Below are positions 2,593 through 42,788 of a DNA stretch of 64,000 nucleotides, in pieces. The first letter of the stretch is position 1, and the number at the start of each line of letters is the position of its first letter. The DNA comes from Pyrinomonadaceae bacterium (GTDB taxonomy: Bacteria; Acidobacteriota; Blastocatellia; Pyrinomonadales; Pyrinomonadaceae). Under the pieces are notes generated by a model. The model did no database searches. It saw nothing but the letters and a program-made list of their open reading frames with translations, and was not told the DNA's origin. The translations under genes and the position numbers were made by a program. The stretch covers positions 62,001-126,000 of the forward strand of contig JAJQRF010000011.1 in NCBI GenBank assembly GCA_021228405.1, read 5' to 3'.

Positions 2593-3342
2593 TTATTTCA
2601 TTTTTGCGACAAACTCGTGAGAATCCGCGCCTTCGGGCAACATCGATCTGACCTCGTAACCGAGTTCGCGCAAAAATTTCAGGCATTCGGCACGAAGCGC
2701 GGGCGAGTGCGTGGAGAGAAAGATCGTCGGTTTCGCCTTTTGCAGGACATTTCTCGCGCCGTGAAATACGTCCATTTCCGCGCCTTCGACATCGATCTTC
2801 ATCACGTCGGGCAGAAGCTTCATTTTTTCGGCGATCTCGTCCAGCGTGACGGTCGGCACATAAACCAGACTTTCGCCTTTCCCGTTGCCGTTTCCCTCGG
2901 CAAGATGTCCCATCGCGGAATTTTGTCCGAGCGAAAATGTTGCGATCGAATTTTTGTCCGACAGTGCAAACGGAAGAACTTTCACGTTTTTCGCTTTGTT
3001 CAGTTCGACGTGGCGGTGCAGAAACGTAAGATTGCTGATGACCGGTTCAAACGCGACGACGGTTCCCGTTTCGCCGATGTTTCTCGAAGCGAGAATCGAG
3101 TAATAACCGATATTTGCGCCGATGTCGAAAAAAATCTTGCCTTTCGTAAATTCGGCAAGCATCGTTTCCGTCTGCTCGGCTTCCATCATATTGAAATAGA
3201 CCGACGCGCCGCCGCCTTCGCCAGCCATCGCGCCCAAAATAAACTTTGCGCCGCGAAGCGGTCCCGAAACAACCCTGTAAGCCCTGCGCGGTAAAATTTT
3301 CCCGAACAAAAATCTGCCCGATCTTCTTAAAAAACTATCCAT
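2593..3342 (-). CDS. FkbM-family SAM-dependent methyltransferase
   Basis: Class I methyltransferase of the FkbM family; these O-methylate sugars or polyketides. Length is 249 residues, usual for the family. Motif I, FFDIGANIGYYSIL, starts at residue 71, and the family motif MKIDVEGAEMDVF lies near 180-192. Substrate cannot be told from the sequence. It lies 51 bp downstream of the codirectional neighbour's end region and is not obviously in a sugar cluster; a lipopolysaccharide or glycan methylation role is only a guess. Confidence 0.85.
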   Translation of the reverse strand: MDSFLRRSGRFLFGKILPRRAYRVVSGPLRGAKFILGAMAGEGGGASVYFNMMEAEQTETMLAEFTKGKIFFDIGANIGYYSILASRNIGETGTVVAFEPVISNLTFLHRHVELNKAKNVKVLPFALSDKNSIATFSLGQNSAMGHLAEGNGNGKGESLVYVPTVTLDEIAEKMKLLPDVMKIDVEGAEMDVFHGARNVLQKAKPTIFLSTHSPALRAECLKFLRELGYEVRSMLPEGADSHEFVAKMK

Positions 3343-3420
3343 TTTTGATTGAAGCCGAAGAATTCAAATAAAGATTATACATTCAACACGTTTTTCGGGA
3401 AAATACGCTTTTGAATTCAT

Positions 3421-3456
3421 AAAAAAACCTTGACGAAAATAATCATCGTCAAGGTT
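3421..3456 (-). terminator. Intrinsic terminator of the NTF2-like gene
   Basis: Stem arms 3426-3435 (AACCTTGACG) and 3447-3456 (CGTCAAGGTT) are exact complements with an 11-nt loop. On the minus strand the stem is followed by a run of T (3427 down to 3421). This fits termination after the gene ending at 3527. Confidence 0.85.
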
Positions 3457-3526
3457 CAGGAGTTAAATTTATGGTGATAACAGAATCCAATGCCTATTTA
3501 TACTACTTTTTATTAAAAAAGCCAAG

Positions 3527-22669: not shown

Positions 22670-23890
22670 TTAACGAGAACCGAGGGAGTAAAGTTGCGTT
22701 TCGTGATTGTAAGTTTTCCAATCGAACCAATAATCTTTTATCGCCTTAATTTTCCTGAGTTGCTTGCCTGTCATTTCGCCTCTGACGGCTTTGCCCGAAA
22801 AATCCCAAACACTGGCGGTTTCCGCGTCGACGATCTCTTTAGTGTCGGGTTTGATGAAAAATTCGAGCGTTTTGCCGTCAATTTCCCTTTCAAAACCGCG
22901 CACCGATTTCTGGTCTTCGGCGAGAATGATAATGATTTTTTTACCGCCGACCGTATCGAGAATCGGGTTTTGTTTCTCGATTGCCGAAAACGGATAAGCT
23001 TTTGAATTGCCGTTTATTTCCAAACCGACGACAAGCGTTCGCGGTTCGAGGGTTTTGTCCAATTCCTTTGAAATCCTGACGGGCATTTTTGCGACTTTGG
23101 TTTCCCAATCCGCTTCATATTCGTTTTCGGCAAGCTTTTCTTCATCGGGACGAAGAACGCGACCGTTCGGATTTTCCCGTTTCCAAATGCCGTAGGAAAT
23201 TTCGTCGAAATCGACCTCGGCGAGTTTCTGTCCTTTCAGTTTTCCCTGAATAGCTTCGCCTGAAATCTGTTGCCACCACGAACCCGTTTCCTCGTCGCGC
23301 ATTATGAAATTCTGGTTATTGATTCCCGCCAGTTGAAATTTTAACGTCTGCCCGTTCACGACGGACTGCCACACAATTCCAGTGTGGCAGAGCGTTCAGT
23401 AAGTCGCTGTGATCGGCATTCCGCCGACGACATCCTGCACGATGTGGTGATACGCCATCTGCCGAACGGGAAAAGCCGCCGCATCGTCATTAACCTTAAC
23501 GGCTAAAACCATCTCGTCATCCGCGACGAAATCGGTTTCAGAAACTTTTGCAAATCGCGCATTTTCGAGCGGATTGAACATCCACTCAAAATGATTCTGC
23601 CGCGCAAACCAAGTGAAACCGAAAATAATCAAAAGCGGCACGATCAAAGCAATTTTGCCATACCAGCGTTTCGATTTTTTCCAGATAATGACGGCTAAAC
23701 CGACCGCCGCGATCGAAAGAACAATCGTTAAGATCGGCGACCAGCTCCGTAAAAAATAGGAAATTTCCAGTTGCTTTTCGGTCTGCGCCGAAAATGGTTT
23801 GATGAACCAAACGGGTGTGAAAACCATCGCCGCAACGATCGCCGTTATCAAAAACAGGATCAACCAAGCCGTTTTATAACCGAGTTTCAT
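22670..23890 (-). CDS. DUF3179 membrane protein with in-frame UGA (predicted selenoprotein)
   Basis: Read through the UGA at 23398-23396, this is one 406-residue protein. Residues 1-95 hold three membrane segments. The DUF3179 domain follows (AAAFPVRQMAYHHIVQDVVGG). The conserved CxxC site reads ITATY-U-TLCHTGIVWQ, with selenocysteine at 165 in place of the first Cys. The frame is preserved on both sides with no indel, and the downstream part (FVGLEING-type segment VVGLEINGNSKAYPFSAI) is a second copy of the same pattern. A SECIS-like hairpin follows. Function of DUF3179 is unknown; UxxC suggests a redox role. A nonsense pseudogene is the alternative. Confidence 0.85.
23366..23390 (-). promoter_or_regulatory. 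SECIS-like hairpin for the DUF3179 UGA
   Basis: On the minus strand, five bases after UGA, CTGCCACAC pairs perfectly with GTGTGGCAG around the loop TGGAATT. The 9-bp stem lies entirely in codons, and GG in the apical loop is about 16 nt from the UGA. This is the placement and form of bacterial SECIS elements read by SelB. Confidence 0.8.
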
Positions 23891-40755: not shown

Positions 40756-42168
40756 ATGATGGATTTGATTCTCGATAAATTTCACGAAGAATGCGGCATT
40801 TTCGGTATCTACGGACACGCAGAAGCCTCGACCTTAACCCAACTCGGACTTTTTGCGCTACAGCATCGCGGGCAGGAGGCTTGCGGGATCGTTTCGAGCG
40901 ACGGCGCAGACCTTCACCAGTTTCGTTCGCAAGGTTTGGTTGCCGACGTTTTGGTTGAGGACGAACTGCTCAAGCTGACCGGAAACTCGGCAATCGGGCA
41001 TACGCGCTATTCGACCGCCGGAAAAAATACGATTAAGGAAGTTCAGCCGTTTTCGGTGACTTGCCAGCACGGACAGATCGCTGTCTGTCATAACGGAAAC
41101 CTGCCTTTTGCCAATCAAAAACGCGCCGAACTGGAAAAAGCAGGCGCAATTTTTTCGTCAACTTCCGACACGGAAACCATTCTTCATTCGATCGCACGAA
41201 CGCAAGCGAAAGACGTGATCGAAGCCGTTTCAAAGGTTTTGAAGGAAACCGAAGGCGCGTTTTCACTTTTGTTTTTAACGCCGCAATGTTTGATCGCCGT
41301 CCGCGACCCGCGCGGATTTCGTCCGCTCGCGCTCGGAAAATTGAAGGATGCGTGGTGCGTTGCATCGGAAACCTGCGCTTTCGATCTAATCGATGCGGAA
41401 ACGGTGCGCGAGATAAAAGCGGGCGAAATGCTCGTGATCGATGAGAACGGGCTTCGTTCCTTCTTTCCTTTCGAGCAAAAGCCGGTTTCGGTTTGTTCCT
41501 TTGAACACGTCTATTTTTCGCGTCCCGATTCGATCGTTTTCGGAAAATCGGTCAATCAATCGCGTCATAATATGGGCAAACAACTGGCGGTCGAACATCC
41601 GGTCGACAATTTCGACAACAACGCGATGGTCGTGCCCGTTCCCGATTCGGGCGTGGCGGCGGCGGTCGGTTTTGCGCGTGAATCGGGCATCAATTTCCGC
41701 CACGCGATCATTCGCAATCATTACGTCGGACGAACTTTTATCGAGCCTTCGCAAAGCATCCGTTCATTCGGCGTGCGCCTAAAGCTTAACCCGATCAAGG
41801 ATTTAATAAACGGTAAACGAATCGTTTTGATCGACGATTCGATCGTGCGCGGAACGACCTCGAAAAAGATCGTGCAGATGGTGCGTGAAGCAGGCGCGAA
41901 GGAAGTTCATATGCGGATTTCCTGCCCGCCGACGATTTCGCCGTGTTATTACGGCGTTGATACGCCGAGCAAAGGCGAACTGATCGCCGCGCAGATGACC
42001 GTCGAGGAAGTTTGCCGCTACATCGAAGCGGACAGTTTGGGCTATCTTTCGCTCGAAGGAATGCTCAAAGCGACCGGAATAGAAACCGATTCAGCCTGTG
42101 TTGCGTGTTGGAACGGGAAATATCCGACGTTGATCGCCAACGGAAAATCGGCGACCAATCAAATTTAA
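40756..42168 (+). CDS. purF: Amidophosphoribosyltransferase
   Basis: First committed step of purine synthesis: PRPP and glutamine give phosphoribosylamine. It has 470 residues. A 12-residue propeptide precedes the nucleophile Cys13 (EECGIFGIYG). The glutaminase part has SAIGHTRYSTAG and CHNGNL; the PRPP motif is VLIDDSIVRGTTSKKI. C-terminal cysteines (CPPTISPCYYG, SACVACW) fit the iron-sulfur type of enzyme. The gap before it holds only a weak CACGA/TCGTG palindrome. Confidence 0.96.
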   Translation: MMDLILDKFHEECGIFGIYGHAEASTLTQLGLFALQHRGQEACGIVSSDGADLHQFRSQGLVADVLVEDELLKLTGNSAIGHTRYSTAGKNTIKEVQPFSVTCQHGQIAVCHNGNLPFANQKRAELEKAGAIFSSTSDTETILHSIARTQAKDVIEAVSKVLKETEGAFSLLFLTPQCLIAVRDPRGFRPLALGKLKDAWCVASETCAFDLIDAETVREIKAGEMLVIDENGLRSFFPFEQKPVSVCSFEHVYFSRPDSIVFGKSVNQSRHNMGKQLAVEHPVDNFDNNAMVVPVPDSGVAAAVGFARESGINFRHAIIRNHYVGRTFIEPSQSIRSFGVRLKLNPIKDLINGKRIVLIDDSIVRGTTSKKIVQMVREAGAKEVHMRISCPPTISPCYYGVDTPSKGELIAAQMTVEEVCRYIEADSLGYLSLEGMLKATGIETDSACVACWNGKYPTLIANGKSATNQI

Positions 42169-42192
42169 TTCAATAAAAATAAGGAGAAATCA

Positions 42193-42732
42193 ATGCGACA
42201 TATTTTATTAGTTGCTGCCGTTTTTCTAACTGCTTTAGCAGTTTTGACGGCGTGCCAAAATGCCGCGCAGCCGAAAGCGGAAACAGCCAAAGCAAATACG
42301 AAAGCGACTCCGGCGGAAATCATTAAAGATAAAGACCCTGCCGATGACGCGCCGCGCATCGATCTGGCTGATGCCAAGAAGGATTTCGACGCGGGAAACG
42401 CCATTTTCGTGGACACACGCGCCGAATTTACCTACAAACAGGAACACATCAAGGGCGCGATCAACGTTCCCGCCGAAGCGATGGAACTGCGCTACAAAGA
42501 AATCCCGACGGACAAAAAGATCATTGCCTATTGCTCCTGACCGAGCGAACATACAAGCGCCGGTCTGGTTGCTAAATTGAAAGAAAAAGGTATCGGAAAT
42601 GCTTTTGCGCTCGTCGGCGGAACTCAGGCGTGGAAAAACGCGGGTTATCCGATGGAAGGCGAAGCGAGTAAGAAGAACGATTCGACCACGAACGAGAACA
42701 AATCCGTGGACAAACCGCCCGTCGATAAATAA
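42193..42732 (+). CDS. Rhodanese-like lipoprotein with in-frame UGA (predicted selenoprotein)
   Basis: Read through UGA at 42538-42540 it has 179 residues. The signal peptide ends in a lipobox (AVLTAC). The rhodanese domain runs from about 55 (IDLADAKKDFDAGNAIFVDT, RAEFTYKQEHIKGAINVPAE) to LVGGTQAWKNAGYPMEG. The active-site loop reads IAYCS-U-PSEHTSAG; the catalytic Cys of this branch is at that spot, so Sec116 would be the persulfide-carrying residue. The frame is intact on both sides and a SECIS-like hairpin follows. It starts 24 bp after purF with an AAGGAG site. Confidence 0.87.
42556..42573 (+). promoter_or_regulatory. SECIS-like hairpin for the rhodanese UGA
   Basis: AGCGCC pairs with GGTTGCT (one wobble, one bulged T) around the loop GGTCT, 15 nt after UGA. 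The apical loop GGUCU and the bulged U recall the E. coli fdhF SECIS as I remember it. Stem is short, so this is weaker than the DUF3179 hairpin. Confidence 0.65.
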
Positions 42733-42755
42733 CTGAATTAACTAAAAAAAAACAA

Positions 42756-42788
42756 AAGTAATGCCTGAAATATCGGGCATTGCTTTTT
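42756..42788 (+). terminator. Intrinsic terminator after the rhodanese gene
   Basis: AAGTAATGCCTGA (42756-42768) pairs with 42773-42785 with two wobbles around a 4-nt loop, followed by TTT. It lies just past the stop at 42732, which supports the read-through end of the gene. Confidence 0.85.

Follow-up and report, generated by a model that had tools for sequence, protein, structure and literature searches.

The gene at positions 42193 to 42732 of the window (the whole stretch of 64,000 nucleotides analyzed here) is best explained overall as encoding a rhodanese lipoprotein that faces the periplasm and has selenocysteine (Sec) as residue 116, a reading to which we give a probability of roughly 0.8. 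Translation of this stretch with read-through yields 179 amino acids and crosses a single in-frame TGA, at codon 116, in an active-site loop that reads YCS-U-PSEHTSAG. A gene caller using translation table 11 would stop the protein at 115 residues, inside that loop. The features on which the argument draws are the following.

40756 to 42168, plus strand: purF, ending 24 bp upstream of the Sec-rhodanese gene
42181 to 42186, plus strand: ribosome binding site AAGGAG, 6 nt ahead of the ATG, recognized from the sequence
42193 to 42732, plus strand: gene of the Sec-rhodanese lipoprotein, running from ATG to TAA and encoding 179 residues when the UGA is read through
42193 to 42255, plus strand: lipoprotein signal peptide and lipobox, recognized from the sequence, with the codon of the predicted lipidated Cys21 at 42253 to 42255
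42367 to 42642, plus strand: rhodanese domain, residues 59 to 150, from Pfam PF00581 and fold matches
42532 to 42534, plus strand: Cys114, at the end of the predicted strand 109-113 that precedes the active-site loop, proposed partner of Sec116, invariant in 30 homologues
42538 to 42540, plus strand: UGA codon assigned to selenocysteine, residue 116, from TGA in 30 of 30 homologues, a class-wide signature and Cys orthologues
42556 to 42573, plus strand: SECIS hairpin AGCGCC-GGUCU-GGUUGCU, loop GGUCU at 42562 to 42566, with a U bulged on the 3' side, from comparative tests
42754 to 42787, plus strand: intrinsic terminator-like hairpin of 15 bp, from folding (-19.8 kcal/mol, z -6.3)
22670 to 23890, minus strand: second Sec gene of the window, encoding a DUF3179 protein, with a TGA at 23396 to 23398 in TYUTLC (TYUTLCHTG) and a SECIS-like hairpin thereafter

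The product matches the Pfam rhodanese model PF00581 with 57.3 bits, against a cutoff of 22.2. Its first 21 residues, MRHILLVAAVFLTALAVLTAC, have the character of a lipoprotein signal with the lipobox LTAC at residues 18 to 21, as judged by inspection of the sequence, and the lipobox Cys column is conserved in at least 90% of the 30 homologues. The protein is thus very probably exported and lipidated at Cys21, with its rhodanese domain anchored so that it faces the periplasm. In Escherichia coli, a Gln after the lipidated Cys favors the outer membrane; Gln follows Cys21 here, and outer membrane sorting is accordingly the favored prediction. The gene lies on the same strand as purF. We examined the eight closest relatives, and in five of them purF is likewise directly upstream; since this order is kept, the two genes are probably cotranscribed. 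The initial annotation had described a rhodanese lipoprotein with UGA in its active-site loop, whose frame runs on to a normal stop and then a strong terminator, and this description is borne out: the frame closes at the TAA at 42730 to 42732, and folding clearly shows a terminator hairpin beyond it, even though a scan of the window for terminator-like elements gave no entry for 42754 to 42787.

The UGA codon is strictly conserved. TGA occupies the position in all 30 of the best homologues from relatives, which are 35 to 66% identical to the product, TAA and TAG never occur there, and the portion downstream of the UGA is conserved among these homologues as well. We also searched 162 genomes of the class, from 53 genera, for a DNA signature composed of the UGA and the hairpin apex. 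The TGA form of this signature was found in 112 genomes and 35 genera, a count of Sec-rhodanese carriers rather than of carriers of this orthologue, given that the signature also catches paralogues that are not lipoproteins. Neither a TAA or TAG form of the signature nor the control in which the signature is read backward gave a match in any of the 162 genomes. Varied stops in relatives, which the initial annotation had named as an observation that would speak against recoding, were therefore not seen at this codon.

The genome from which the window derives has the components of selenocysteine decoding. Profile searches recovered SelB (397 bits; cutoff, 242), SelA (556 bits) and SelD (347 bits), and a tRNA-Sec with a UCA anticodon is present, so that the absence of SelB or tRNA-Sec, likewise proposed as grounds for refutation, does not apply, and the expectation that this organism uses Sec is strongly supported. 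SelD carries an in-frame UGA of its own in the motif SCAGUVAKL (L046, 2380 to 2430, minus strand) and is itself a selenoprotein. The second recoded gene announced by the initial annotation within the same 64 kb is the DUF3179 gene on the minus strand, which matches its family with 227 bits, is the sole PF11376 match in the genome, contains one TGA and has a 9-bp hairpin with the loop UGGAAUU shortly 3' of it; Sec is already known in the DUF3179 family (PMC13188914). Three relatives (G018, G025 and G053) gave no SelB, but SelA is present in all of them, as is a fragment of SelB in G053; the missing SelB is likely an assembly gap in each case, and we did not count these genomes as exceptions.

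Downstream of the codon, the hairpin with a GGUCU loop and a bulged U that had been noted 15 nt past the UGA was recovered at that distance, with the loop itself starting 21 nt after the UGA. The stem and an invariant GU (positions 2 and 3 of the 5-nt loop) can form in all 30 homologues, compared with 0.9 of 30 expected under synonymous recoding, and a hairpin of this geometry with a loop GU follows only 3 of the 2,025 TGA triplets in the window. Only 1 of 22 Cys homologues has a GU-loop hairpin of SECIS shape. Codons +7, +8 and +9 have the same third base in every one of the 30 homologues, and codon +6 does so in 26 of 30 (each p < 1/2000), while in most flanking and further-downstream codons third-base identity is close to expectation. 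Compensatory changes were seen too: in the homologue L041 a Ser codon has changed from AGC to TCC together with a change of GC to GG on the opposite side, and in L020 and L021 a C-G pair has become U-A. Judged by these comparisons, the SECIS element is under selection. The support is comparative and not thermodynamic, because on its own the 36-nt hairpin stretch folds with no unusual stability (-5.2 kcal/mol; z about 0), and a longer stretch of 53 nt, at -11.6 kcal/mol, adopts a competing fold in which the UGA region is paired. Thermodynamic folding was for these reasons dropped as a proof of the SECIS element. A ribosome that pauses at the UGA should mask this alternative pairing. The hairpin fits the published bacterial SECIS model in loop, stem and spacing; for energy, that model sets an upper limit of -7.5 kcal/mol on the minimum free energy (PMC13188914, Fig 2), compared with the -5.2 kcal/mol of the 36-nt stretch.

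Taken with the sequence comparisons above, the UGA at 42538 to 42540 is almost certainly read as selenocysteine, and the alternatives to this decoding have very little room left. Table 11 assigns UGA to termination and the first open reading frame is a clean 115 amino acids, as would be the case if the codon simply ended translation or had arisen by mutation in a pseudogene, leaving a truncated 115-residue protein and a decaying remainder. We regard this as highly improbable in view of the 30 homologues with TGA, the 112 of 162 genomes with the signature and none with TAA or TAG, the conserved downstream half, and the Cys at this codon in orthologues without Sec machinery; truncation would also cost the fold its last strands. 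An error of sequencing or assembly, conceivable in a draft genome of 20 contigs, is even less probable, given that dozens of genomes, each assembled independently, share this TGA. Stop, pseudogene and sequencing error were thus all rejected on the conserved TGA and the lack of TAA and TAG. Read-through by itself names no residue, so decoding of UGA as another amino acid, as Trp or by a suppressor, has to be weighed as well. However, TGA is present in just one of the nine rhodanese matches of the genome, namely the Sec-rhodanese lipoprotein, which together with the Sec machinery led us to reject generic UGA suppression; a selected hairpin follows the codon, the SelABCD set is complete, and the replacement found in relatives is Cys and not Trp, leaving non-Sec read-through with a very slim chance.

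The comparison with Cys-containing homologues that the initial annotation had proposed shows a natural exchange of the two residues. A scan of GTDB genomes for the motif with Cys in place of Sec gave 22 Cys homologues, from Acidobacteriota, Chloroflexota and other phyla. The closest of these, L048 and L049, have TGT at the Sec codon, keep the downstream gene order and are nested with good support in the UGA clade of the tree, and both SelA and SelB are missing from their genomes. Downstream of the codon, differences are mostly at third positions. Another homologue, L050 (around 3001 to 3462), has TGC at the codon, although a SECIS-shaped hairpin persists there and its genome still encodes SelA and SelB; it looks like a recent replacement of Sec by Cys. 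Sec orthologues in Sec-decoding genomes and syntenic Cys orthologues in genomes without SelA and SelB form matched pairs, which could allow the contribution of selenium to rhodanese chemistry to be measured.

An AlphaFold2 model, built with Cys in place of Sec, has a rhodanese fold with a mean pLDDT of 83 and values above 90 across most of the domain. The closest fold is 3tp9 (Z 18.2, root mean square deviation [rmsd] 1.4 over 106 residues), followed by 3gk5 (Z 17.3). The thiosulfate sulfurtransferases GlpE and PspE share the fold (1gmx, Z 15.4, rmsd 2.3 over 104 residues) but have a single catalytic Cys, a shorter loop and no Sec; PspE is exported. In the Sec-rhodanese lipoprotein the active-site loop, which connects strand 109-113 to helix 120-131, has two residues more than that of canonical rhodaneses. 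C114 is at the strand end, but the loop thereby departs from the usual length, a feature of typical sulfurtransferases that Pfam does not demand. The best Foldseek match, BH2092 (3nhv), has the same loop length in an ungapped alignment and a strand-end Cys at C114; it differs in lacking Sec and in having its second Cys at +5 from the first, compared with Sec at +2 here.

Which of the two residues corresponds to the catalytic Cys depends on the alignment: the ungapped one to 6mxv, in helix register, sets it on U116, while the gapped one to 3tp9, guided by the preceding strand, sets it on C114. Given this disagreement, we dropped the choice of a nucleophile from sequence. The earlier proposal, which placed Sec at the sulfur-carrying catalytic position, is therefore upheld as far as Sec lies in the active-site loop, whereas the assignment to that exact position is not, the alignments giving either C114 or U116. 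One alternative is a single-residue sulfurtransferase with the canonical six-residue loop, where Sec116 alone would carry the persulfide while C114 would be structural, a view that agrees with the 6mxv alignment, where the helix register and the S-A of the loop match. We consider it possible but the less likely option, since C114 stands at the strand end, as the canonical Cys does, and, like U116, is invariant in 30 of 30 homologues, the 3tp9 alignment places its Cys on C114, 3nhv has a Cys at C114 in a loop of the same length, and L115 has UGA at both positions. The C114/U116 pair (C-x-U) appears to be the safer and better-supported description of the active site.

Going by the comparisons, the ribosome almost certainly inserts Sec at the UGA at 42538 by means of SelB, Sec-tRNA(Sec) and the SECIS element at 42556 to 42573 and continues to the TAA at 42730. 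In the lengthened loop, Cys114 and Sec116, two residues apart, may act as a redox pair, where one chalcogen would accept sulfane sulfur from thiosulfate, polysulfide or persulfide and the other would form an S-Se bond to resolve it, after which thiols of the periplasm would reduce the pair again. We put this specific chemistry forward tentatively, at a little under even odds, and hold with moderate confidence that the broader role lies in periplasmic sulfane-sulfur/thiol redox chemistry.

The genetic neighborhoods of Sec-rhodanese genes differ between branches. In most of the closest relatives, UDP-sugar genes of the UDP-GlcNAc epimerase and UDP-glucose dehydrogenase types lie downstream. We dropped the idea of deriving a function from these and from purF, as the orthologues' own neighbors show orthology and not function. 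In distant branches, three sulfate ABC substrate-binding proteins above the cutoff adjoin the gene, as does a CysT/W-like permease, in keeping with an ABC importer of the sulfate/thiosulfate type, and the neighboring Fe-S/NrfD proteins resemble parts of TtrB, DsrO and polysulfide reductase. The Sec-rhodaneses at L082, L083, L084 and L085 have neighbors of two kinds, sulfate ABC substrate-binding proteins and proteins in which 4Fe-4S and NrfD parts are fused (511 to 549 amino acids), and a PrxQ adjoins the one at L079. These sulfur-related neighborhoods belong to paralogous branches and not to the orthologous group, which adjoins purF. In one relative (L080, genome G029), selB immediately precedes a Sec-rhodanese lipoprotein gene on the same strand, as might be expected if the protein handled selenium instead of sulfur and carried or reduced selenite or selenide in the periplasm. 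Consistent with such a role, a passage of PMC5877670 refers to work in which a rhodanese was able to bind selenium, and the same paper places the rhodanese-like extH in a cluster linked to selenite reduction. However, the selB neighbor occurs in just one genus and most neighbors are sulfate-transport-like, NrfD-like or purF, which makes selenium handling an improbable alternative to the sulfane-sulfur role.

That Sec-rhodaneses were already known, as the initial annotation supposed, is correct. A 2026 review lists five rhodanese-like Sec forms, of which form 3, CxU, is cataloged as NF041203 (rhodanese_LYCAU, "rhodanese-related [seleno]protein"), a family with the same CxU/CxC loop and either Sec or Cys at the same place (PMC13188914). 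All 30 homologues match this model, and the Sec-rhodanese lipoprotein does so from residue 45 onward of its own sequence, the lipoprotein signal being additional to the 126 positions of the model; its score of 83.5 bits is below the cutoff of 115, and we did not assign it to the NF041203 equivalog. It would nevertheless work like a form-3 Sec-rhodanese, judging from the shared loop. Other relatives are more distant: TsoB (NF045694, UxxxxU), which resembles a rhodanese/DsbD fusion, also has Sec in the rhodanese active-site loop (PMC13188914) but differs in the positions and number of its Sec residues (two) and in the DsbD-like fusion, and matches the lipoprotein with only 33.9 bits. Rhodanese-like forms 1, 2 and 4 (UxxS, UxxG) are bacterial Sec rhodaneses as well, with motifs unlike CxU (PMC13188914), and these motifs suggest that their Sec-bearing loop has the ordinary length. 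In the open-access literature we found no paper on a Sec-rhodanese lipoprotein or on selenocysteine in Blastocatellia, which does not prove that the form is undescribed. The kind of protein is thus known, and what is added here is the predicted exported, lipid-anchored form, its spread in Pyrinomonadaceae and the swap of Sec for Cys upon loss of Sec decoding. The Sec-rhodaneses would in this way gain an exported, membrane-anchored branch that is sparsely cataloged although very common, with the caveat that the 112 of 162 genomes with the signature mix lipoprotein and cytosolic copies.

As a tentative proposal that we think rather unlikely in its full extent, Pyrinomonadaceae and related Acidobacteriota might share a lineage-wide set of Sec-rhodaneses with three interchangeable chalcogen positions in the loop (strand end, +2 and +5; CxU, CxxxxU and UxU). 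Within this set, the CxU form with its lipid anchor would use selenium in the periplasm to reduce or transfer sulfane sulfur, and some branches would couple this activity to the uptake of sulfur oxyanions.

Several further Sec-rhodaneses were observed alongside the lipoprotein. A second type of about 112 amino acids, without a signal peptide, was found at six loci (L104, L105, L106, L108, L109 and L111). Its motif, YC(A/S)xP(T/S)UxAS, places Sec five residues past the strand-end Cys (CxxxxU), and a hairpin resembling GCCGCC-CGUGAACU-GGCGGC lies downstream; CxxxxU is absent from the rhodanese forms listed in the 2026 review (PMC13188914). At L115 (223 to 561, minus strand; genome G057), the loop contains two UGA codons, YUTUQMEASSA (UxU), an observation from a single genome in which an error is possible. 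Finally, Sec-rhodanese genes occur as tandem or nearby duplicates within about 600 bp, each with its own TGA, at L078, L082, L083 and L087.
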